Of a stretch of DNA of 64,000 bases, positions 905 to 59,683 are shown piece by piece. Every line of letters begins with the position of its first letter. Position 1 is the first letter of the stretch. The DNA comes from Euptelea pleiosperma (Eukaryota > Streptophyta > Magnoliopsida > Ranunculales > Eupteleaceae), in the NCBI GenBank assembly GCA_035048495.1, contig CM068549.1, forward strand, positions 10,712,000 to 10,775,999. The letters are read 5' to 3'. The translations under genes and the position numbers were made by a program. The notes under the pieces are model-generated. The model did no database searches. It saw only the letters and a list, made by a program, of their open reading frames with translations, and was not told the DNA's origin.

Positions 905-2405
905 GTCTACCGGCTTTGACTCAGCCGAGACTTCCATTAACAAATGCTCATTGTCCTTCTTACTTTTTCACGATGAGCATTTTGAGAGTTGACGACCCCG
1001 CTGTAAATCATGTTGATTACCCCGTTGGGTTGTCTTCTTTCTTCTCTGTCGACCTGTCTTCGTTCGATGTCTTCTTCTTCTTCTTCGCTTCGGTCTTCCT
1101 CCCAGACCACAAATCGGTCTATATGCCCTTGATTCACCAAATACTGCAGCAGGTTCATCAAGGCATAGCATTCATCCATAGGATAATCTCTAGCTCTATG
1201 GTACGCACAAAACGGCTTATCCGGCCGGTCGGCGTAGGTTGTCTTAGGGGCCTTGAAGTAAGCCTCCCCTCGGATTTTCTCTAGAATTACAGATCTTTTC
1301 TCGTTTAAGGGCATGTATTCTCTCGGCCCTTCCATATTTTTTCTCTGAAACCTCTCTCTCCCCCGATCCCTACTGACGGATCGGTCTCTCTTACTTCCTC
1401 CCTTCCCAGCAGAGGATCCGACCTCATTAATTTTGACATCGACTGGCTCAATTCGAGCTTTAATTGCATCCTCCACTTTGATTTGCTCTTCTAGGGCTTG
1501 GTAGGCGTCCTCCTGCCTAGATGGATTTTGCATCACCAACTGTTTCTGAGCCCGAGACCCCACCAAGATGCTGACTTGGAGGGCAAACACGGCAGTTCGT
1601 TCTTTTAGCTGGTCAACCTGAGCAACCTCCTTCCTGAAACGAGCCATATAGTCTCGGAGTGACTCTCCTTTGACTTGCTTGATGTTAAGAAGAGCTGTGA
1701 CGCATAACATCCGCTTCCTCAGATGAATGTACTTCGTGGTGAATACATCCTCTAAGGTCTTAAAATTTATGATCGAGCCTTCCCCCTGGGTATAGAACCA
1801 AACTAGGGCAATCCCCTTCAAAGTTGTCGGGAACATCCGACAAAATAAGCCGTCAAAGGATGGCGAATCCCACAACACCATGGCTTGCCGGTAGTGAAAC
1901 AAACGGTCTATCGGATCTGCTGCCTAGTCATATAACTCAAAATACGATTGTTGGAACTTCCTCGGGATCTCGATTCTCAAGATATTCTCTGAGAAAGGCG
2001 ACCTCAATGCCCGCAAGGCGTCTTTGGCAGCTCCAGCTGTCGTCTTCTCTCCGATTATTGGTCTTGCATCTCAGTCTTGCTGGATCATTTCAGTCACCTT
2101 CTCTATCATGACCATATTAGTGCGATGTTCCGACTCTGGGTTCTCCCGGGCGAGTGGCTGCTGATCTCGCACTATATCTCACCCCCATGCAATACTGTCT
2201 TGGCAGTCTCCCCCGTGCAAGTTGGAGCTTTATCCTTGTTCTTCAACTCCTTTCAAGGTAGGTTCTTTCAGATCGTCTTCTCGGTCTCTCAGTGGATCTT
2301 CCTGATCGACCGCATCTTCCATCATCTGTTGTTTCAGTTGGCAATTCTCTCTTCTCACATTCTCCATCCCATTTCTCATTTTTTGCATTTCATCGAGTAG
2401 CCAGT
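905..2405 (-). pseudogene. Tat-lineage Ty3/gypsy gag, main part (element F)
   Basis: Gag of a Tat-type Ty3/gypsy element, the capsid/nucleocapsid precursor that packages element RNA. The longest open run is 1902-937. It holds the plant Retrotrans_gag core (DPIDRLFHYRQAM, then a region with WF, LRDYMARF and EVAQVDQL) and, near its end, a zinc-knuckle-like C-x2-H-x4-D-x4-C run (CAYHRARDYPMDEC) followed by the typical LVNQGHIDRFV. The usual histidine of the knuckle is D here. Upstream (2400-1926) the frame continues as a coiled-coil-like acidic N-terminal part but carries several stops, including TAG directly before AADPIDRL near 1923. Element E is inserted at 2405; the gag start lies at 59770 and the two halves rejoin in frame across E. 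No F pol is in the window. Dead copy; lineage call is confident. Confidence 0.85.
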
Positions 2406-12273: not shown

Positions 12274-12734
12274 TGATATTCGCTCAAAAGTGCTTATTTT
12301 AAGCCATTATCCTTATAGCGATGTCGCATTCTCCTACGTAAAACTTGTCTTTTTGTCGACTTTTCCATATAAGAGTTTTTTCCATTGCGTAGAACGCATT
12401 CTTTAGATGAAAATTGACTATTTGCATGAAATATACGCATTTCGGATAGTCCAGTATCAAGCCGTTTTAGTTGAATCTCATTACGCGCTTTTTCACTTGT
12501 AAGAGACCTTATCGGGCGATTCTCGAGTACTGGCGGGCCCACGATCAACCACAGAAGACTTCTATCAAAGCTTAAAGAGCCAACATGCTATGATAAAAAG
12601 ATAGAAGACATGTACGGGTAAAGCTAGAGGATCGTAGAGCCGGAACAAGGACTAAGAGAGAGAAGAATAGCTGGAGACCAAGAGAAGGACTTAGGTGTTA
12701 AAGGCCACACCAATTGACATCAAAGGATATGTTT

Positions 12735-12788
12735 GACTTATTGGTAGAGCGGACGAGAGAGAATAAAGAAGACTAGGGTTCAAGACCC
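12735..12788 (+). other. tRNA-like A/B-box module in A LTR
   Basis: The D-arm-like GACTTATTGGTAGAGCGG (12735-12752) resembles a pol III A box. The perfect T-arm GGG-TTCAAGA-CCC (12776-12788) fits the B-box consensus. The distance between them is right for a short tRNA, but no acceptor stem or anticodon arm is evident. The 3' LTR copy (about 23387-23445) has one stem base changed. Confidence 0.6.
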
Positions 12789-12862
12789 TCCAATGCTTTT
12801 ATTTTTGTATTTTTCTCTCACCTCTCTCCTATTTCTCTCTTTATTTATCTATCTTGGCCCAT

Positions 12863-12937
12863 GACATAGGCCCATGACCCATGACCCATACCCATACCCA
12901 TGACCCATGCCCATTACCCATGCTCATGCCCATTTGC
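12863..12937 (+). repeat. CCCATG/CCCATA hexamer array in A LTR
   Basis: Tandem CCCATGA/CCCATAC units. Copies of different length lie at 23512-23595 (A 3' LTR) and, reversed, 35500-35585 (C LTR). It lies between the tRNA-like module and the TATA box, as the minisatellite does in E. Confidence 0.85.
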
Positions 12938-13035
12938 AACAACAAGAGAGAATTGATCTCACTTGACCGATTCTTCTCTCCCCCATACCTCTCTATCCTA
13001 GTCACTCTCTCTCTCATCTAACTAACCCATTCCCA

Positions 13036-13063
13036 ACCGTTGGATCTCTCTAGATCCAACGGT
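13036..13063. repeat. Perfect 11-bp inverted repeat upstream of TATA
   Basis: ACCGTTGGATC at 13036-13046 and its exact complement at 13053-13063 around a 6-nt loop. It is decayed in the 3' LTR near 23700 and mostly kept in C near 35370-35400. The CCAACGGT half-site recurs in the E and G LTRs. Confidence 0.8.
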
Positions 13064-13097
13064 CATCATTTTTATAATAAGCAAAAAGAAAAAAAAA

Positions 13098-13106
13098 TCT
13101 ATAAGA
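13098..13106 (+). promoter_or_regulatory. Probable weak TATA box of A LTR
   Basis: TCTATAAGA followed by a CT-rich leader. It is in the same relative place as the TATATAAG of D and E but is a weaker match. Confidence 0.45.
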
Positions 13107-13348
13107 GATCTACGATCTCTCCTTCTTGGGTTGGTTCCCTCCCCCTTCTCTTCATCTCTTTCTTCTTTCTTTCTCTTCTTCACCCTTCTTCTCCGGCGAG
13201 CTCACCATTAATGCCTCCACCTCAAGGCGCAAAGCGTCAAACAACAATGTTTCCTTACTGCCCATTCCATTCACCACAATCAAAGGCTACAATCCTCAAT
13301 CCTATTGAGGTCTATCCAATCGAAGTTGCACCATCTACCTCTTCAATG

Positions 13349-13779
13349 GTAAGCTTCTCTTTAATTCATCTCTCTAACCTTCCTACCTTCTTTCTCTCTC
13401 TTCTTTCCCTCTCTACCTTTACATGCTTTCTAGGGTAATATTTTAATGGCTTTCTAGATTAATTTTGTTTAATGTTATTTCCATTGTAAAGCATTTGAAC
13501 AAGCATTGTAAGCATTTGTTTTTAGTTTAATGAACAAGTTTTAAATTCAAGTTTAAGTTGTTTTCATTTATTGTGTTTTTCATTCTCGTTTCTCTTATGT
13601 TTTTTTATTCTAATAGTTTTAACAACAATCTCAAGCATATTTTAAATCAACCTCCACCATTCTCACCCTTCTATTTATTCTGAGCATTTTTTGATTATTC
13701 TTGTTTCTTATTGTGCTAACTAATCCCGAGTGCGGACGATATCCGACACGAGCCACTGTGCAAGTCTACTTATTTGTAG
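13349..13779 (+). other. Probable intron contained in LTR U5
   Basis: Donor ATG|GTAAGC at 13349 and a T-rich acceptor ending TTTGTAG at 13779 (TTTGCAG in the 3' copy, 24443). D (donor 55541, acceptor 55933) and E (donor 3776 or later, acceptor about 59612 in the 3' copy) keep both sites. Inferred from sequence only. Confidence 0.45.
13730..13749 (+). other. Conserved U5 hairpin (A 5' LTR copy)
   Basis: GTGCGGACGATATCCGACAC folds as GTG-CGGA / TCCG-(A)-CAC with one bulged A and loop CGATA. Homologous hairpins with changed but still paired bases lie in every LTR of the group (24394, 24789, 55882, 59563; reversed at 34704, 44761, 50242; fragment 41497). Confidence 0.65.
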
Positions 13780-13867
13780 ATTAAGTGAACCAATTCGGAG
13801 AAATTACAAATATTGTTGAAATCAAGGGTTTCCGTAACCAACGACGCGGAAAAGCCTTAATTTCAAA

Positions 13868-13880
13868 TGGCGCCGTTGCC
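13868..13880 (+). other. Primer-binding site of element A (Asp-tRNA type)
   Basis: TGGCGCCGTTGCC two bases after the LTR end. This is the PBS form typical of Athila elements. Confidence 0.93.
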
Positions 13881-16984: not shown

Positions 16985-18010
16985 TTTTATAATTATTTTT
17001 TCCAAATACCTCTGTGAATCTATTTTTCAAAACCGTTTAGTTTGTATTTTTTTGATTTTTATTGATTAAGTTATGATTTTTCTAAGTTGTATGACTTTAC
17101 CAAAAAAACCAGAATTTTAGATTTTACACGGTCCGATTCACTTGCGATTTCGATCTATATTTTTAACTTAAATATTTTTTTAATTATTTTTTATGGATAC
17201 CTCTGTCAATCTAGTTTCTAGAACCTTTGAGTTTATATTTTTCTAATTTTTATTGATTAAGTTATAATTTTTCAAACGTGCTGGACTTTTCTGTAAAACC
17301 CAGAATTTCAGATTTTACACGGTCCATTTCACTTGAGATTTTGATCTATATTGTTAACCGAAATATTTTTTTAATTATTTTTCATGGATATCTCTATCAA
17401 TCTCGTTTCTAGAACCTTTGAGTTTATATTTTTCTGATTTGTATTGTTTAAGTTATGATTTTTCAAACATGCTGGACTTTTCTGTAAAACACAGAATTCC
17501 AGATTTTACATGGTCCATTTCACTTGAGATTTCGATCTATATTTTTAACCTAAATATTTTTTTAATTATTTTTCACAGATACCTCTATAATCTAGTTTCT
17601 AGAACCTTTGAGTTTGTATTTTTCGGATTTGTATTGATTAAGTTATGATTTTTTAAATGTGCTAGACTTTTCTGTAAAACCCAGAATCCCAGATTTTGTC
17701 TGACCCACTTCATTAAGGGTTTTGACCCATATTTTGAATCTAAATATTTTTCTATTTCTTTTTCCTAAATACCTCTTTAAATCTAGTTTCTATAACATTT
17801 GAGTTTGTATTTTTTTGATTTGTATTAATTAAGTTATGATTTTTCAAATGTACTGGACTTTTCTATATCCCAGATTCTGTCCGGCCCAATTAATTAAGAG
17901 TTTTGACCTATATTTTGAATCTGAATATTTTTCTATTTATTTTTCCTCAAAACCTCTATGAATCTAGTTTTTAAATCTATTGAGTTTATATTTTTCTAAT
18001 TCATATTTAT
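16985..18010 (+). repeat. ~190-bp tandem repeat inside T1
   Basis: Six diverged units, each beginning near ATACCTCTGTGAATCTA (about 17009, 17196, 17387, 17577, 17767, 17946) and containing TTGATTAAGTTATGATTTTT. T2 has the same array at about 30570-31440 with one unit fewer. Confidence 0.85.
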
Positions 18011-22928: not shown

Positions 22929-24529
22929 TGATATTCGCTCAAAATACTTATTTTAAGCCATTATCCTTATAGCGATGTCGCATTCTCCTACGTAAACTTA
23001 TCTTTTTGTCGACTTTTCCATATAAGAGTTTCTTCCATTGTGTAGAATGCATTCTTTAGATGAAAATCGACTATTTGCATGAAATATACGCATTTCGGAT
23101 AATCTAGTATCAAGCCATTTTAGTTGAATCTCATTACGCGCTTTTTCACTTGTAGGAGACCCTATCGGGCAATTCTCGAGTACTGGCAGGCCCACGATCA
23201 ACCACAGAAGACTTCTATCAACGCTTAAAGAGCCAACAGGCTATGATAAAAAGATAAAAGACATGTACAGGTACAGCTAGAGGATCGTAGAGCCAGAACA
23301 AGGACTAAGAGAGAGAAGAATAGCTGGAGACCAAGAGAAGGACTTAGGTGTTAAAGGCCACACCAATTGACATCAAAGGATATGTTTGACTTATTGGTAA
23401 AGCGGACGAGAGAGAATAAAGAAGACTAGAGTTCAAGACCCTCCAATGCTTTTATTTTTGTATTTTTCTCTCACCTCTCTCTTATTTCTCTCTTTATCTA
23501 TCTATCTTGGCCCATGACATAGGCCCATGACCCATGACCCATACCCATGCCCATACCCATACCCATGACCCATGCCCATTACTCATGCTCATGCCCATTT
23601 GCAACAACAAGAGAGAATTGGTCTCACTTGACCGATTCTTCTCTCCCCCATACCTCTCTATCCTAGTCACTCTCTCTCTCATCTAACTAACCCATTTCCA
23701 ACAATTGGATCTCTCTAGATTCAACGGTCATCATTTTTACAACAAGCAAAAAGAAAAAAAAAGTCTATAAGAGATCTACGATCTCTCCTTCTTGGGTTGG
23801 TTCCCTCCCCCTTCTCTTCCTCTCTTTCTTATTTCTTTCTCTTCTTCATCCTTCTTCTCCGGCGAGCTCACCATTAATGCCTCCACCTCGAGGCGCAAAG
23901 CGTCAAACAACAACGTCTCCTTGCTGCCCATTCCATTCACCACAATCAAAGGCTACAATCCTCAATCTTATTGAGGTCTATCTAATCGAAGTTGCACCAT
24001 CTCTCTTCAATGGTAAGCTTCTCTCTAATTCATCTCTCTAACCTTCCTACCTTCTTTCTCTCTCTTCTTTCCCTCTCTACCTTTACATGCTTTCTAGGGT
24101 AATATTTTAATGGCTTTCTAGATTAATTTGGTTTAATGTTATTTCCGTTGTAAAGCATTTGAACAAGCATTGTAAGCATTTGTTTTTAGTTTAATGAACA
24201 AGTTTTAAATTCAAGTTTAAGTTGTTTTCATTTATTGTGTTTTTCATTCTCGTTTCTCTTATGTTTTTTTATTCTAATAGTTTTAACAACAATCTCAAGC
24301 ATATTTTAAATCAACCTCGACCATTCTCACCCTTTCATTTATTCTGAGCATTTTCTGATTATTCTTGTTTCTTATTGTGCTAACTAATCTCGAGTGCGGA
24401 CGATATCCGACACGAGCCACTGTGCAAGTCTACTTATTTGCAGATTAAGTGAACCAATTCGGAGAAATTACAAATATTGTTGAAATCAAGGGTTTCCGTA
24501 ACCGACGACGTGAAAAAGCCTTAATTTCA
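22929..24529 (+). repeat. Element A 3' LTR
   Basis: Full-length partner of 12274-13865, 1,601 bp, ending TTTCA before the TSD ATGCT. The hairpin copy is 24394-24413 and acceptor TTTGCAG ends at 24443. Confidence 0.95.
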
Positions 24530-24534
24530 ATGCT

Positions 24535-24614: not shown

Positions 24615-24908
24615 TATTTTCATTTATCATTCTCTATGATTGGTCTAACTAATATTTCTTCATTAGTTGTGATAATCCCCTCAAAAAATATTTTAAAAAT
24701 CAAATCCCATCATTCTCACCTCTCCACATATTTCTGAACATGTTTCTATTATTTGTGTTCTTGAATGCACTAACCCGACTAATCCTGAGTGCGGATACGA
24801 TATCCAACATACCACTGTGCATCATGTTAATTTTGAAGAAAATCGGATCATACAAATATTGTTGATCCTAGGGTTTCCGATCCAACAACACGAAAAACTC
24901 TAGTTTCA
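24615..24908 (+). repeat. Element E 5' LTR, second part
   Basis: Continues exactly where 4131 stops and matches 59395-59683. The conserved hairpin is at 24789-24810 (GGATA-CGA-TATCC core). Ends AGTTTCA. Confidence 0.93.
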
Positions 24909-24910
24909 AA

Positions 24911-24923
24911 TGGCGCCGTTGCC
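24911..24923 (+). other. Primer-binding site of element E (Asp-tRNA type)
   Basis: TGGCGCCGTTGCC two bases after the LTR end, as in A. Confidence 0.93.
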
Positions 24924-26494: not shown

Positions 26495-28980
26495 ATGTTT
26501 ACTCCTTGTGCATCATATAGTCTACTTCAGGTTAGTGTTCTCCTCTGGCAACTTTTTGCCAAGTTTACGGCTTATTTTTTCAAGCATATTCCCATTTGGA
26601 CCCGATCCAATCGTAGATTGATTCGATCTGAGAGTCAATCTAACATTTTAGATTCTTCATCGGTATCTTCACCTACTCTATCTCCTACCCTCCCCTCCTC
26701 TCCCAAAGAAACTACCTTCGTAGAACTGGCGGCTGAACGACCTCTCATTGAGATGTATGCGCCTATCTCTGTAAACCCATCCACTTGTATTGTTCAGTTC
26801 AAAATCCAACTGCACATAGTACAATTGCTGCCTACCTTTCATGGTCTTCCAAGAGACGACCCGTACACTCATCTAAGGCAGTTTCTGAATATCTGCACTA
26901 TCTTCAAACTTCAACACCTTGATGACCAGAGCGTCAAATTGAAACTTTTTCCCTTCTCTTTGAAAGATAGAGCTGCTGATTGGTTTTATTCTTTGCCCGA
27001 GAATTTGATTACCACATAGGACGAACTAGCTTGGAAGTTTGTATTCAAATTTTACCCCATGTCTAGGACGAACAAGATAAAGCAGATCATCCAAGACTTT
27101 CGACAAAAGTCGAATGAGAGATTCCATGAAGCATGGGACATGTTCCAGGAAACGCTCACCAAATGTCCCCATCATAACTTCGACAAGGGGAGTCTAGTCC
27201 ACATGTTCTATAAAGGACTCACTGATGAGTCTAGAACTCTGCTAGAGTTGATGTGCCAAGGCAAATTCATGCACAAGACTCCCACAGAAGCTTACATTTT
27301 CTTAGGAGAACTAGACGAGAACTCCTAGCACTGGAATACCAATTTTGTGTGCAGTAGTAACACCCTGTTCAAACGGACTTCTATGGGATGGGAGGCAAAA
27401 GGTGATCCTGAGCTATAATCCTTAATTCAGGAACTTACCAAATCAGTCTTCGCCCTTGCTGTCTCGGTCCAGCAACCTGTGCACTATTCTCAGTCTCTAG
27501 GATATTACCCTCCTGTCCAGCAAGATGTCTGTACTTTCAGTTCATTTCAATCTCCAATGCAGACTTCCTATGATAACACTTCATATCTGGACAATAGGAG
27601 TCACCATTGTTTTGATTGGGAACAATATTTTCTTCAACAGCCACTTTCGTAGGACAATTATCCTTTGGGTTTCATCAACCCAATGGAAAGTATGACTGGC
27701 AATACTCGCAGTCGCAGTACCAGCCAGCTCCACAGACTGAATATTTTGGTCAACAGTGGACTCATCTGGATTCCCAGAGTCAGCAACCAGTCTCAGACTC
27801 ACTACCGGCCTACCATTGTCATAATCTTTTGGACTTCTATTAAGAGTTGGCACCACAACTTCCCTTAGTTGAACTGCCATAGTTTGCTGTTAAACCTGGC
27901 CTCAAAGACCTTCTCTCTCAGTATATCATCCAGCAACAACATTCCATGGAGAGGTTGGACCACTGTCTAGATCAGTTAGAGTTTGAGAGTGTGGAAGTCA
28001 AATGCCCCAGTCAACCAATCGCTTATCTAGAGGGGAATGACATGGCCACTGTCTATGAGGAGGAGTCACTACCCATGCACCAGAACTGGAATTTTTGAGA
28101 TGAACGAGAAGTTATTACCACCACTAGACCGACCCAGATTATTGAGGAGCCAGTGTATCCCTTTTCGGTGCCTTTAACAACACCAAATCTTGAACCTAGC
28201 TCAGACAGATCTATTTCTCACTCTACCTCTATTGACCCTGATGTCGATCTGCATGACATGGAGTTGTGTCTCGATCGTAGGATCCCAACTATCCTAGATC
28301 TACTGTTCGTGACCTCCATTAGATTGTGCAACAATAGTGCTGAACCCGTGTCTCTATCTATAGTGCCCTTACAGGCCACCACATCTGAACCGAGCACAGA
28401 GATACCCATGTCCATCTCTATTTATGATGATTCTACCTCTGCACTGGATGCAGACATTCCCACCGTCTAGCCGTATCTAGAAAATGGGCCTCCAGCTGTC
28501 CTGGACCTACCGTTCCCCACCAAGGATGAACACATTGAGTGCAGGGATTGGAACATCCCTCTCGCACTAGGAAACCTTGAGGAAGAGATCAACAGTTTTC
28601 ACCCGCCACCATACGTCGATATTATCGATGACCCGGGTGCCATAGAGAGTCTACTTCAAGACTTTCCCGAGGAAAAATTGTCAAAGTGTCAAGCACACCT
28701 TGAGTCTGACTTCATCTCGAAGTCAGACAATTCTGGATTCACTGATCTGCTGGAGTCTGCTCCATTCAGATCATTCCCGCTAAACTCAATGAGTTTGCGG
28801 CTCTGCTAACCACGGCCAGAGAACACCCTTCTACCATCCTATTCATTCTCACTGAGCAAATTTGATCCCTCCCCATTGCACTCAATGCTCTTTCACATCT
28901 GCTTAGAGCAATTACTGTCCTTCTCTCAGTCTACACTGAGAAAGACTTGTTCTATACAAGTCTCCCTAGACAAGGGATAT
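26495..28980 (+). pseudogene. Athila-type gag of element E, with stops
   Basis: Gag of an Athila-lineage element. The Retrotrans_gag core runs about 26830-27330: LPTFHGLPRDDPYTHLRQFL, then LKLFPFSLKDRAADWFYSLP, then after a TAG at 27017 MSRTNKIKQIIQDFRQ, FHEAWDMFQETLTKCPHHNF, FYKGLTDESRTLL and a C-terminal TPTEAYIFLGELDEN. The core spacing is the family norm. Further stops follow (27326, 27416, 27648, 27839, 28097, 28468). Downstream the frame resembles A: QYSQSQYQP, YIIQQQHSMERLDHCLDQLE, and the acidic Ser/Thr-rich part to about 28980. No zinc knuckle, protease, RT, RNase H or integrase follows; the sequence goes straight into the 3' tail. A pol-less organisation, not a mere truncation, is likely because A and C end the same way. 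Confidence 0.85.
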
Positions 28981-29258: not shown

Positions 29259-32200
29259 TATAATACCCCGAACTTTCGTTCTAGGGTATTATGGTAAATT
29301 CACCTAAATGAAAACCTGAAACTTTTTTAAACTCTTATTATTGTTTTTATTGTTTAATATCATATATGAGTATGTGTATTTAATTTGGTTTCATTCTGAC
29401 AACTTTGAAAAAACCTGTTATTTTTGAAACTCGCTCTTTAGGACTAAATTCCTACTAAAAATAATGAATCATAGCTTGCAGAGGACTTTTTCTTGCCGCA
29501 GCTAATATTCTAGAACTTTTATACAAAAATTATTTTGTGGGCCCGAGACATCAAAAATATTCTTATTTTATCATTACTAACTTACCTGTGAAATTTGGAA
29601 CCTTTCCTGATACATAAAAACCTTAGTGGAAGATTTTGAGAGATTTTGACAAAAATAGTATTTTTATAATTTTTGAACTTCCTACCATTCGCATATTTTT
29701 CAAAAATAATATTTAATTATATTTTATTTATTTAATAGGAGTGTGGGACCTGCGAATCACTTTTTGGGTCATTCCGATGTCATTTGACACTTTTCTAGGG
29801 TTTTGAACATTTTTATGATTTGTGTGTGTGACATGTGTCAATACCTTATTGTGTGGACTTTTAAATTATATAATATAGTTTGATTGAATTAATTTATAAT
29901 TATTTGTGTTATGATTGTTGGGTGAGGCTGTATTGTCAATCTATAAGTCTTTTGGGCTTAATAATATTCTTAAATGAAGCCTATTGATGTATATGGGCCT
30001 TGGGCCCATTTCTAACCCATTAGTAATATAATATATAAGTTTTTGAGGGTTGAAAAAGTCATCCCTTTGCTAGTTACGAATTTCAACAAAATAGAAACCC
30101 TCATCCTTCCCTAAACCTATTTATGAAAACCCTAAAGCTTTAGAAGCTTTCACAAAACCAAACTCCATTAAAGAATAGAGCAAGCTCCATTAAACTTTCA
30201 TCCGGGCACCGATCGCACTCGAGCAAGACGGGAGAATTGACGGGGACTCCGATTTGAAGAACATACTCCGAGGAGAGGACGATCCGACGACTTTCAAATT
30301 TGAAGAAACTTTTGATTTTCATTAAAGTTCAAGAAACCTTAAGGTAAGTGTGTTTGATCCATCCTATATTTATTTTTCTTCAAGATTTTGTTTCTCTTTC
30401 ATTAGATAATGGTTGATACTCATTATAAATTAATTTCAATTATATTTACTTTATTCTTATTGGGTTGAGCTTTATTTTGGGCCACCATGATGGGTTTGGC
30501 CATAGTCTATTTTGTGCCTATAATGGATGACTATGTTCTTTATCATTTTCATTATATTTTTATAATTATTTTTTTTAAATACTCTGTGAATCTATTTTTC
30601 AAAACCGTTTAGTTTGTATTTTTCTGATTTTTATTGATTAAGTTATGATTTTTCTAAGTTGTATGACTTTACCAAAAAGCCCAGAATTTTAGATTTTACA
30701 CGGTCTGATTCACTTGGGATTTCGATCTATATTTTTAACCTAAATATTTTTCTAATTATTTTTCATGGATACCTCTATCAATCTAATTTCTAGAACCTTT
30801 GAGTTTATATTTTTCTGATTTGTATTGATTAAGTTATGATTTTTCAAACGTGCTGGACTTTTCTGTAAAACCCAGAATTCCAGATTTTACACGGTCCACT
30901 TCACTTGAGATTTTGATCTATATTTTTAACCTAAATATTTATCTAATTATTTTTCATATATATCTCTATCAATTTAGTTTCTAGAACCTTTGAGTTTATA
31001 TTTTTTCGATTTGTATTGATTAAGTTATGATTTTTTAAATGTGCTAGACTTTTCTGTAAAACCTAGAATCTCAGATTCTGTCCGACCCACTTCATTAAGG
31101 GTTTCGACCCATATTTTGAATCTAAATATTTTTCTATTTCTTTTTCCTAAATACCTTCTTAAATCTAGTTTCTATAACATTTGAGTTTGTATTTTTTTGA
31201 TTTGTATTGATTAAATTATGATTTTTCAAATGTGCGGGACTTTTCTGTATCCCAGATTCTGTCCGGCCCAATTAATTAAGAGTTTTGACCTATATTTTGA
31301 ATCTGAATATTTTTCTATTTATTTTTCCTAAAAACCTCTGTGAATCTAGTTTTTAAATCTATTGAGTTTATATTTTTTTAATTCATATTTATTTAGTTAT
31401 GATTTTTATAATGCAGTACATTTTTTGTAAAAAAAATCTATTAATTGTTCGTGGTTCGGTCATGATTATTAACTATTAAGGTTTTAACCTTGTTGTTTGA
31501 CTAAACCCTAGATGGTTTGACCTATACCTGTATGCATGGGGATCCCACCCGTGTGTCTTAGATCTCTCATAGGGTTCGGCTATCTGTCTTGGATCCCTCT
31601 TCAAGGTTCGACCTTGTGTCATGGATCCCTCATAGAGTTCGGCCATGGCGTATTGGATTCTCTCGCGATTTTCACTTATATTATTCATCGATGTTGATTG
31701 TGATATTTGGTCATGTCTTATTGACCAATACTTGTATGCATGGGGATCCCACCCATGTGTCTTGGATCCCTCATAGGGTTTGGCCAAGTGTCTTGGATCC
31801 CTCTTTAGGGTTCGACCTTGTGTCATGGATCCCTCATAGGGTTCGACCATGGTGTGTTGGATTGTCTTGTGATTTCCACTTATATTATTCATTCGTGTTG
31901 ATCGTGACCTTCGGTGATTGTTACATGTTATTCATGGTTAACCCTAATTCGTTCCCATATTATTACTCTTAATGATCATTGGTTCATTTTATATTTTTAT
32001 TTAAATGTTAAATACATGTGTGCTTATGTCATGTAACCCTATTACATCTTGCTGTCATACCATGATCATCACGTCGTTTCATATAAGGGGTGCATAAGGG
32101 AACGGGGTTGAAGTATATTATATACTTTTATATTGGTTTTATCAATTAATTAGGGTTCGGTACCCTAGGGTGAAAGGCCCCAGACGTTATTATATCCTGC

Positions 32201-41480: not shown

Positions 41481-41626
41481 CACAAACTAACCCCGAGTGC
41501 GGATCGACATCCGACACGAATCCCTATACAATATCGCATATTTTGCAGGAATTAAATTGGAAAAGATACAAATTTAGTTGGAATTAGGGTTTCCGTAACC
41601 AACGACGCGGAAAAATCCTACTTTCA
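41481..41626 (+). repeat. LTR 3'-end fragment within the gene-fragment block
   Basis: About 145 bp equal to the last part of the Athila-like LTR: hairpin 41497-41517 (CGGAT-CGAC-ATCCG), TTTTGCAG, GGGTTTCCGTAACC... to CTTTCA. It is most like the G type. No PBS follows, so only the LTR end is present. Confidence 0.85.
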
Positions 41627-50130: not shown

Positions 50131-51210
50131 TGAAACTAGGTTTTTTTCCGTGTCGTTGGTTACGAAAACCGTAGAATCAACACATTTATAATTTGATCCG
50201 AATTTTAATCCTACAAAATATAAAATTTTGTATAGGGATTCGTGTCGGATGTCGATCCGCACTCGGGGTTAATTAGCACAGGCAAGAACTTGAAATGACG
50301 GATTTGTTTTACAGAAATTGCTTTGAAATTAGTGAAAAATGTGGAGAGTTGAGAATGGTGGATTGATTTGAAACATCTTTGACAATTTTTATAAAGAGAA
50401 CATGCTACCATCAATAAAACAAAAATTCAACATATAATAATCGAACTAACTTTATTAATCAATTGAGTAGCTTCATTATATTAAAATGACTTATAACATG
50501 GCATAAAATCTAACTAAGAAAAACAATGAAAGAGAGCAAGTAAGAGAGAGGAAAGGTTAGATATAGATAGAGAGAGAAAGTAGGGGGAAAGTCCTAGAGA
50601 GAGAAAGAAGGGAAAAATTCACCATGTTTATTACTTACTCGAGAGGGGGTTGTTTGGCCGGAGAGAATGAACCCAATGAATGATCCGGCCAGCAAGCGAT
50701 GATTATGGTGGTGCAGAATAGTGCTGGCCGGTTGTTGTAGTGGTGGATAATCGGTGACGTAGGCGGAGGAATGGAACAATCCGGCAAGAGAACCCCCCCA
50801 CATGTAATGGAGATGAGCACTATCCGTGGTGGAGCAAAGGTTGTCGTCCAAGAGAAGGGCAGCAAGGGAGGTCCACCGGAGTTGTTGGATTGCAACTTCG
50901 GTGTGGAGTTTAGGCGGAAGAGGCCGGCCTGTTGATCGGTATGGTGGCTGGAGGATGGCAGCGGCAAGGAGGAGGGGCGCACCAGCTTTGCACCCCTCAC
51001 TTCCTCTTCTCTCTTCTTCTTCCTCTTTTTTTGTTTTTCTTTTCTATTTATTTTTTTTTTTTGTAGAACCGGTGGAGAGCTGATTAAGGACGACTGGAGG
51101 AGAAACGATCGGTGGTTGCAAGGTGAAGGCGGACTGGTGTGCGGTGTGCCTTAGAGATGACAGAACGATGGCGAACGAGAGAGAGATTGGGGTTGTGGGG
51201 TGAAATGGAC

Positions 51211-53716: not shown

Positions 53717-56012
53717 TGATATTCGCTCAAAAGTGATTATTTTAAGTAATTATCTTTCTAGCGTTATCACACTCTCTTACGTAAAACTGCCATAATTATC
53801 AACTTTTCTACGTAAGAGTTTTCTCTATTGTGTAGAACATACTTTTCTGGTCAAAATGGTATATTCGCATGCATTCATACGCATTTATTTGACCCACATG
53901 CGAAGTCATTCTCATTACGCGATTTTGCTATCACAAGAACACTAAATTGGATAATTTTGATAGAGTGCGGGCCTAAAATCAACCTACAATACCTTTGATC
54001 AAAGCATGGAGAGCTAGTAGACCTAGACAAAAAGATATAGGCCAAAGACGGGAAGAGAGAGAGAATCAAAAGAGTCGAGAGACGATCAAGAGAGAAGGAG
54101 AGACAAACCCCCAAAGAGGAGACTAAGGAGATTAAAGCTTATCAACTAACACAAGATGAAGACTTGCTCAGTTGGTCAAGCATGCCGAAGACCAAGTCAA
54201 AGACCAAGGTTCAGTCCCCTCTACTATCACTTTTCTCTTTATTTTGTAATATTTTCTATCTCCTCTCTCCTCTCTCTCTCTCTCCAAACCATCATTCTCT
54301 CTTTACTCTCAAATCTACATAATCCGATCCTTTCCCCTGCCTCAATCACTCAATTTTACGGCCTACCTTGGCCAATTTCCATCGCTCGATCATCACCGTC
54401 CATACGATCGCTCAGTCAGTCCCCCAATCATCCATCTCACCATCTCATAAATCCAATGGCCCTCATCACTTTATGTTCAATCCTATGGGCCTAAGCCAAG
54501 ATGAAGTACGGACCCATTACCTTTGGCCCAACCATTCAGTAGGACTCACATGCCTAACATGGACAGGAAATGGCTGCTAAAGAAGAAAAGAAGAGAATTT
54601 TTAAGAATCAAAGCATTTTTCAAAAAAGGAATGGTTTCTGAATCTAGGAACCCACGATTCTACCATTAGAAAAAGGAGGAAAAGTTTTAGAAACCGTGGG
54701 TTTCTATTACAGGAACCCACGGTTCCTACCAAAAAAAATAGAGGAACGTTGAGGAAACCTAACAGTTCCTATATAAGGAGGAGGCAGCAGTCTTTACCGC
54801 CTCTCCCCTCCCATTCCATCTCCTTACAAAACCCTAGCCGTTCCATCTCCCCTCTAATCCTTCCCCTCTCTTTCTCACTCAGCCGACCCTTACAAAGAAG
54901 AAAACCAGAAAAAAAAAAAAAGAGAAGAGAAAGAAGGAGGAGGCGCCTCCTTGCTGCTGGTGTGCACGCCCAGCTCACCCCCCTCATCTTCTCTGGTTTG
55001 CCATCCCTTTACCACCATTGCTACCATCCTCCAAGCTCCATCGCTCCTCCCCACGATCTCTTCTTTCCTTCTCTCTATTCTTTTAGCAACCGCCCCACAC
55101 AAAAGAAAAAAAAAAAGAACCAGAAAAAAAGAAAGAGGGAAAAGAAGAAGAGAAGAGAGGAAGGAGGAGGGAAGGACGCCCTCACTTGTCCAAATCGTTG
55201 CCGCCCTCCTCCATCTCCTTCACCGCCACCTGTTGCTACCACGGCCTGCAACTTGCAGGCCGTTAAACCTTGTACCATCATTGCTGCCAGCACCTCCATC
55301 AAGGATTGCTACCCACTGTTGCCGCCTCAGCCGTTACCGCTTGCTCCATCACTTGCCACCTCCCTCCACAACGCTCCCATCTCATCTCGTTGCCCTTCTC
55401 CTCAATAGGTGTAGATCAGCCTTGCATCGTTCCAGCAAACACCACCCTCATAGCATCACCATGGCATCCTCCCTTGCTGGCCTTACCATAACCAGCAAGT
55501 TAACTACTCCATCTTCATTTTCCCTACTCCATGCACCAAGGTAAGCTTCATCAACAGTTTGATCTTCATCCTCTTCCAATTGTTCTCTTTAGTTTTCTCT
55601 TCTTCTTCTTCTTTCTAGGGTTGCAAATTTGCTAGCTTGATTTAAAAGTCGCTTTCTAGATTAATATTTGTTTTTGTTTGATTAAGTTGTGTACCCACTT
55701 TTGATCAATTAATAAAGTTAGTTACAATTTTCTATTTCTTTCTCTAGATGCATTTTAATCTTTTTTTAATCTTATTCAAATAGACTTGTTTCAATCCGAT
55801 CCATCCCTCTCATCTAACCATCATATTCTCTAGCATTGTCTGTGTCATTTTATGCCCTTGATGTGCATGACCTAATCCTGAGTGCGGGCGATATCCGACA
55901 CATATCCCTATATAAAGATCTAAAATTTTGCAGGATTTAAGAACCGGATCAATTACAAATGTGTTGAAATTAGGGTTTTCATAACCAACGACGCAGAAAA
56001 ACCCTACTTTCA
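53717..56012 (+). repeat. Element D 3' LTR
   Basis: TGATATTCGC...CTTTCA, 2,296 bp. Contains tRNA-like module 54164-54219, TATA 54770-54777, palindrome 55242-55262, exon-like ORF 55461-55540, donor GTAAGC 55541, hairpin 55882-55901, acceptor ending 55933 and terminal stem. Followed by TSD ATCAT. Confidence 0.94.
55461..55540 (+). other. Exon-1-like ORF with transit-peptide character in D U5
   Basis: ATG in good context (TCACCATGGCA) opens MASSLAGLTITSKLTTPSSF, then SLLHAP, and runs directly into a consensus donor AAG|GTAAGC. Rich in Ser, Thr, Leu and Ala, no acidic residue, Met-Ala-Ser-Ser start: the profile of a chloroplast transit peptide. The ORF cannot be compared in the 5' LTR because C cut it off. 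No specific gene recognised. Confidence 0.45.
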
Positions 56013-57704: not shown

Positions 57705-59683
57705 TGATATTCGCATAAAATTGTATATTTTCTACTATTATCCTCTAAGTGTTATCACAATTGCCTACGTAAAATGCCTCTATTTATCCACTTTTCTACG
57801 TAAGAGTCTCTTTCATTACGTAAAACACACTTTTCTGGACGAAATGGTATATTTGCATGAATTAAACACATTCTCGGAACTCTAGAAATTAAGCCATTTT
57901 GATTAAATCTCATTACATGTTTTTTCTGTCGTAGGGACACTAATCGGACGAGTCTGATAGAATGCGGGCCCACAATCAACCTCCAGAACCTAGGATCAAA
58001 GCTTAAAGAGCCCACAGGCTATGATAAGAAGATAGAAGCCAAGTATGAGTCAAGCACGAAGATCGTAAAGCTGAATCAAGAACCGAGAGAGCGACAAAGC
58101 CGATGAATGAGAGACGGATCCAAGAGACTCAAAGCCACACCAACGGATCATCAATGATGGCTTGATCTAATTGGAAAGATCATAGAAGAACCATGTTGAA
58201 GACTGGGTTCTCATACCCTCTGCCAGATCTCCCTCTCTCATTTCCCTCCTTTCTCTCATTTCACTAACTTTTCTCCCTTGTTTCTCTTCCATCTCTTTAG
58301 ATATATCTTCCAGGCCATTAGATCACCCCATCTTCCCATCGGATCTCAAATCGGACTATCCGACCCTCAAATCTGACCTCCGGATCCTTAGATCAACCAT
58401 CTGATCGACCAATCGATCATCTGATCACCATACCATCTCACATCACTCCCTCTCCTCTTTTTTCCCCCGTACTAACTGTAATCCAACCTTACCCAACATC
58501 CATCTCACCCATAACCCGGACCCTAAATACGCGACCCGTGATCTGGTTCCAACTAAAATAATGGATGAATAGTGGTGAATAGGGATGAATAGTAGATGAA
58601 TAATGATGAATAGTATATGAATAATGGATAAATAGTGCTGAATAGGGTGAATAGTGGTAAATAGTGGATGAATAGTGATAAATAGTGGCATGGTTGGTAT
58701 TGGTATGAATAAGGAAACAAAGATTTAGTTTTGGGAAATGAAAAGGGTGAGGACGTCGGAATTAATCATATAGAATGGGTGGCCCAAAGTAAAGAGGAGT
58801 TGCTGCTACAACATGGGTCTAACAATCCAACGGTTGAGATTTCTCTCCCTTTTAAAACATCTTTAAAACCCTAGTATATAAGGGGAAGACGGCTTTTTCA
58901 AAGGGGGGTCTCCTCTCTCTCTCTCTCCAGCGCCTCTCTCCATCACTCTCTCACCCTTCACCCCTTCTCGTTGACATTCTCCACCTTCTTCAACGGCTTC
59001 CCTCATGGCCTGCAACACACCGGTAAGTCTGGACAGCACCTCTCTAAGTGTCCCAAATGCCATCAAGCAGCCGGTGGATTGCAAGTTATTTTCCTCACAG
59101 GTAAATACTTCTCCCTCTCACCAGCGAGCTTCCCTTTGGACCAGCATCTCTTGGAGATCCCAAGCCCTGCTAGCTCCTCATTTTTCTCCACTGTGATTCC
59201 TGTTACAAGTCGTAGCCTGCACCTCCTTGCACCTCATTTTGCACATGCAACCGTCTCTCTCATTCTATCTCTACTTCTATTTATTTCTCTTCTCTTTTCT
59301 TTGAGTTACTGTTTGTTTTATTTTTTCTTTCTTGTTGGTTAAACAATTCTGATAATGTAGCTTTCTCTTACGGATCAATAGAAGTGTTTATTTTCATTTA
59401 TCATTCTCTACGATTGGTCTAACTAATATTTCTTCATTAGTTGTGATAATCCCCTAAAAAAATATTTTAAAAATCAAATCCCATCATTCTTACCTCTCCA
59501 CATATTTCTGAACATATTTTCGTTATTTGTGTTCTTGAATGCACTAACCCGACTAATCCTGAGTGCGGATATGATATCCGATATACCACTATGCATCATG
59601 TTAATTTTGCAGAAAATTGGATCATACAAATATTATTGATCCTAGGGTTTCCGATCCAACGACACAGAAAAACCCTAGTTTCA
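57705..59683 (+). repeat. Element E 3' LTR
   Basis: TGATATTCGC...GTTTCA, 1,979 bp, uninterrupted. Contains the shorter minisatellite (58560-58690), TATA 58875-58882, hairpin 59563-59585 (CGGATA-TGA-TATCCG) and acceptor TTTTGCAG ending at 59612. Confidence 0.95.

Follow-up and report, generated by a model that had tools for sequence, protein, structure and literature searches.

The window analysed here is a 64,000-nucleotide stretch of the 613 Mb genome of Euptelea pleiosperma (positions 10,712,000-10,775,999 of contig CM068549.1, assembly GCA_035048495.1). Within it, element A is bounded by a 5' LTR at 12274..13866 (+), which begins with TG and ends with CA, and a 3' LTR at 22929..24530 (+); blastn aligns the two at 95.7% identity across 1606 columns. 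The 5' LTR is followed directly by a primer binding site (PBS), TGGCGCCGTTGCC (13868..13880, +), which is also present at 24911 and which we take to be of the tRNA-Asp type, as expected for the Athila clade of Ty3/gypsy elements. An earlier report, in its available text, assigns a tRNA-Asp primer to Diaspora and Calypso (PMC1142308). Seven open frames of at least 200 aa in the window were scanned for protein families; six had none, and one, at 937-1920 (-), carries a Retrotrans_gag domain (8.4e-11) and had no relative at E 0.001 in the protein database.

Reading along the LTR of A, a possible TATA box picked out by eye (TATAAGAG, 13100..13107, +) lies 5' of a CT-rich leader, and is followed by a putative 5' splice site ATG^GTAAGC (caret, exon-intron boundary; 13349..13354, +), a T-rich stretch, a putative branch point CTAACTAAT with overlapping CTAAC and CTAAT motifs (13716..13724, +), a short hairpin a few bases 3' of it, a putative 3' splice site ATTTGTAG (13772..13779, +; many copies read TTTTGCAG) and finally the LTR end, the distance from the hairpin itself to the PBS downstream being about 120 nt. 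The donor, the branch-point motif and the acceptor thus stand in the order required to delimit a putative leader intron of 431 nt wholly inside the LTR (13349..13779, +). The same putative donor occurs at 24013 in A2, at 55541 in D and, reversed, at 45159 in C2.

The sequence-only reading had claimed nine copies of the hairpin in the window, and all nine are in place and in the right orientation: A1 (13730..13749, +), A2 (24394..24413, +), E1 (24789..24810, +), E2 (59563..59584, +), D (55882..55901, +), C1 (34704..34723, -), C2 (44761..44780, -), G (50242..50262, -; 21 nt) and a fragment, F (41497..41517, +; 21 nt). Those of A, D and G/F fold as GTG-CGGA(T)-loop-(A)TCCG-bulged A-CAC at -5.5 to -7.6 kcal/mol. 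The folds of E1, E2, C1 and C2 are weaker or partial (-4.2 to -5.9 kcal/mol); E1 has one C-A mismatch in the stem and GAAG at the acceptor position, C1 has one broken outer pair, and C2 has a C-G to U-G change and GCAA at the acceptor position. The inner stem CGGA/TCCG is identical across all types, A and G/F being separated by a T indel and loop changes and E amounting to A plus two bases.

An A-type pattern, GTGCGGANNNNNTCCGNCAC, had 1,095 matches in the genome (557+538), against 1 (0+1) for a reversed-pattern control. To avoid selecting copies by the hairpin itself, the stretch 3' of the hairpin was taken from the nine copies in the window to make a first profile, which was run over 264 kb around the window; 42 LTR ends, 20 being exact-hairpin seeds, supplied the same 3' part for a second profile, which was run over 304 kb and returned 28 matches, of which 27 kept the upstream part and one, lacking it, was dropped. 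Removing one copy that is split across two sequence pieces leaves a 26-row alignment; a 41-row set combines 21 LTR ends from the 264 kb scan with 20 hairpin-seeded ones, one incomplete row having been left out. Of the 27 profile-found copies, 13 form all seven pairs perfectly, 7 keep every position paired but with G-U wobbles among the pairs, and the remaining 7 carry one mismatch or more, the 3' arm being deranged in two of them. Except in two deranged copies, length changes are confined to the apical loop. Two copies on the same strand 6.9 kb apart, L016:394-554 and L016:7274-7434, have a deranged hairpin in common (GTGCGGACTCTA) and may be the LTR pair of a single element; the upstream parts of the two fall in different similarity clusters, and both still keep the branch point and acceptor. 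At the hairpin no Rfam family exceeded its gathering score, and the 10 stretches of viral_contigs that match the motif, none of them with the branch-point and acceptor context when inspected by eye, were taken as chance matches.

CTRAY is the plant-type branch-point consensus. It occurs no more than 16 nt upstream of the hairpin in 27/27 profile-found copies (shuffles: mean 1.22, maximum 5 in 300), and 21/27 have a YAG whose end falls 28-33 nt beyond hairpin start+20 (shuffles: mean 3.14, maximum 9), comparisons that test composition only, since the acceptor is part of the profile and the copies are related by descent. Three of the six copies without a YAG in that interval read CAA, CAT and GAAG, each with a close relative that bears an acceptor; in the other three a YAG lies at 25, 25 and 21/35. 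The donor played no part in selecting any copy. A strong one, xG^GTAAGY, lies upstream, at -485..-325, in 25/41 copies (shuffles: mean 0.165, maximum 3 in 200), a set in which 20 copies were seeded by the exact hairpin and all share descent; over the whole stretch the motif is found in 28/41 copies in sense and 3/41 in antisense. Counted by similarity cluster, 12/24 have the donor in the -485..-325 interval and the other half have no strong donor there. Eight further G-type copies, drawn from a listing of G-type matches, yielded xG^GTAAGY in 5/8 (4 within -485..-325) and a YAG at the expected place in 5/8 (TTTTGYAG in 4), their branch point being no evidence because the search pattern already contains TAACC. 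Twin donors 12-18 nt apart were seen upstream of the hairpin in several LTR families, namely in L015, L018, L019, L021, L065, L067 and L070. A reading frame in exon 1 was considered and set aside, the ATG not being retained in C1 and C2.

Across many LTR families of this genome, donor, branch-point motif, hairpin and acceptor are found together, and the spacing between them hardly changes. By its letters the putative intron has the make-up of a U2-type spliceosomal intron, with a GTAAGY-like donor, CTRAY and a pyrimidine-rich YAG acceptor. Reverse transcription of spliced RNA would leave intronless LTRs, and for the A type we found none, either genome-wide (613 Mb) or in the 304 kb scan; the single hit of that search in 613 Mb has 2 mismatches and lies outside any LTR. 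This suggests that only unspliced RNA is copied or that splicing does not occur.

The claim that the inner stem covaries did not survive. CGGA/TCCG is constant, and the apparent changes are differences in apical-loop length together with CpG decay. A tree-based covariation test on the last 190 nt of 41 LTR ends gave no significant pair (best E ~1), and no hairpin pair was among the best 30. Across the 26 rows, 96.0% of stem cells are paired, versus 95.6% after shuffling the 3' letters, a level reached in 128/500 shuffles, and the covariation score was equalled or exceeded in 36/500. The one two-sided change in these rows, G-C to A-U in L059, involves two CpG sites, and decay of both gives an identical result. 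Conservation extends beyond the paired bases: none of the 26 rows departs from the GA that precedes the stem or from the bulged A. Columns of the 5' arm show 0-2 events each, and the 3' arm is variable, with 6 events at its last base; in the profile-found rows the 5' arm and the preceding GA are nearly unchanged and many neighbouring columns vary.

Two other possible hairpins that looked better by eye fared no better. One around the 3' splice site (AATCTGC/GCAGATT) is paired in 67.6% of cells versus 64.9% when shuffled (reached in 15/500), with a covariation score reached in 50/500 shuffles, and is not convincing. The other, a longer inverted repeat TAGGGTTTCCG/CGGAAAAACCCTA at the 3' end of the LTR (13824..13859, +), ends next to the PBS and is present in most aligned LTR ends; at 90.9% paired versus 90.6% shuffled (reached in 199/500), it is well paired, does not covary and is likewise not convincing.

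Thermodynamically the hairpin is marginal: between 4 and 7% of base shuffles are as stable as the isolated fold (A 7.1%, G 4.0%, E 7.3%), and RNAalifold on the 26 rows gives z of -1.1 to -1.9 in the alignment windows that hold it. Searches with the flanks only found 638 A-type and 1,360 G-type copies, and among the 100 listed of each the stem is intact in 44 A-type and 58 G-type copies. In a stem, C>T keeps a G-U pair and G>A breaks the pair. Among the 100 A-type copies listed, stem changes were pair-keeping in 37 cases and pair-breaking in 31, C>T numbered 35 versus 26 for G>A (p 0.31), and the rate of change was 0.098 per stem CpG site versus 0.021 at other stem sites. Among the 100 G-type copies listed, which are not independent, 40 changes were pair-keeping and 15 pair-breaking, and C>T outnumbered G>A by 35 to 10 (p 0.0002 only if the copies were independent, which fails). 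Events on the local tree, given as raw counts without a significance test and with two deranged rows masked over the hairpin, were 11 C>T (5 sites) versus 3 G>A (5 sites) in the stem, and 54 C>T (29 sites) versus 45 G>A (22 sites) outside it. This excess of C>T over G>A, seen in the G type and the local set and not clearly in the A type, is a hint, and our sole sign, of selection on pairing. The genome holds 229 copies of a variant, G5A, in which one pair is broken to A-C. Among the 100 copies listed, at least 5 same-strand pairs lie 6-12 kb apart; these would be LTR pairs, suggesting that elements probably spread without a perfect stem.

What is conserved here could be a linear sequence, approximately CTAAYCCCGAGTGCGGA..ATCCGACAC, that a splicing factor recognizes in the RNA or a dimeric factor in the DNA, in which case the hairpin would be the by-product of a near-palindrome. 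We regard this as a serious rival to a structural role, possible though short of probable. It would explain why the unpaired GA and the bulged A are invariant and the 5' arm nearly so, and it is consistent with the absence of covariation, with a fold barely better than shuffles and with the similar numbers of pair-keeping and pair-breaking changes in the A type (37 versus 31 among the 100 listed); it sits less easily with the pair-keeping preference among the 100 listed, non-independent G-type copies (40 versus 15) and with length changes that stay in the apical loop save in the two deranged copies. It is improbable, in our estimation, that the near-palindrome arose by chance, has no present function and was simply inherited through an expanded group. 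The marginal fold, an A-type stem decay that tracks CpG (0.098 versus 0.021 among the 100 listed) and the multiplication of broken variants such as G5A all fit such an origin, but a 5' arm and preceding GA that are nearly fixed in rows not selected for the hairpin, amid many neighbouring columns that change, argue against it.

Comparably unlikely is a packaging, dimerization or reverse-transcription signal in U5 that its place inside the intron would confine to unspliced genomic RNA. A position about 120 nt upstream of the PBS, the removal of the hairpin that splicing would bring about and the failure to find an intronless A-type LTR would all suit this signal, but the apical loops, CGATA, CGAC and TGA, are short and lack self-complementarity. 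A kissing-loop dimer signal was rejected on the same grounds, the loops being too short and non-palindromic.

The reading that we prefer, an even call in our judgement, is that an intron lies wholly inside the LTR, at 13349-13779 in element A, and that the hairpin belongs to its 3' end. A leader intron in which the hairpin separates the branch point from the acceptor would account for the constant spacing of the splice signals. The link to splicing suggested by the sequence-only reading finds support in the positions of the branch point, the acceptor and, in many families, a donor upstream in the same LTR; the argument that it used, compensatory change in the inner stem, was mistaken. We infer both the splicing itself and a role of the hairpin in it, which might proceed as follows. 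The LTR promoter would drive a leader transcript from which the intron is partly removed; the 20-22 nt stem would fold between branch point and acceptor, cutting the gap from branch point to AG from ~56 nt to ~36 nt; and, in what we see as the likeliest role of the hairpin, this shortening could bring the distal AG into use, or the stem could tune splicing or intron retention. Unspliced RNA, retaining the hairpin and the full R-U5, would then be the template for reverse transcription. A broader proposal, that a large group of plant retroelements carries a complete, regulated spliceosomal intron in each LTR and that the hairpin sets the amount of unspliced RNA for packaging and copying, is doubtful on present evidence, and we offer it tentatively. 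If true, both LTRs would contain the intron, which could also govern how RNA processing reads the 5' versus the 3' LTR.

Leader splicing from an LTR would have parallels in retroviruses. HTLV-1 and the spumaviruses have a leader donor in R, inside the LTR, and package unspliced RNA; unlike those of the putative intron described here, their acceptors lie downstream in the genome and not in U5. Plant LTR elements are generally said to be intronless, with Ogre and EVADE given as exceptions in the accessible part of one source (PMC12786077). As described in the available portions of two reports, these elements splice a retroelement intron from only part of their RNA (PMC12786077, PMC6317226), a likeness to the splicing we infer, but their introns lie between or within coding parts, whereas donor, branch point and acceptor all fall within the LTR here. 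Diaspora, a soybean element of the Athila group, is closer in that the accessible text describes five predicted donors in its LTR, a long 5' leader and a tRNA-Asp PBS; it differs in that the two acceptors predicted for it lie on either side of the gag-pol start codon instead of in the LTR (PMC1142308). According to the same text, no intron upstream of gag had been reported until then, in 2005 (PMC1142308). In yeast, a stem between branch point and acceptor was found in 21/88 introns and proposed to shorten the effective distance, again from the available part of the paper (PMC12350175); those stems belong to introns of yeast genes and have DMS-probing support, whereas the present fold is predicted from sequence. 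LTR splicing goes unmentioned in the accessible parts of PMC3276544 and PMC11410651. Our literature search for an intron in an LTR returned no paper, in a coverage that excludes most subscription papers and so leaves novelty unproven, and searches on covarying conserved stem-loops of plant LTR elements and on introns 5' of gag likewise returned none.

If the intron is real, the promoter repeat of an abundant type of plant retroelement conceals a switch that the host splices, and every solo LTR could deliver a donor, a branch point and an acceptor to its surroundings; the intron would also be relevant to the very long leaders described in this group of retroelements. More generally, apparent covariation in CpG-rich, decaying repeats needs to be checked against CpG decay. 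Elsewhere in this repeat-rich window, positions 27074-27180 (-) match the plant snoRNA R71 (RF00097) at 51.4 bits, against a gathering score of 40. Tandem repeats with ~191 nt spacing lie at 16997-17868 and 30569-31250, and the two arrays are probably two copies of a related element.
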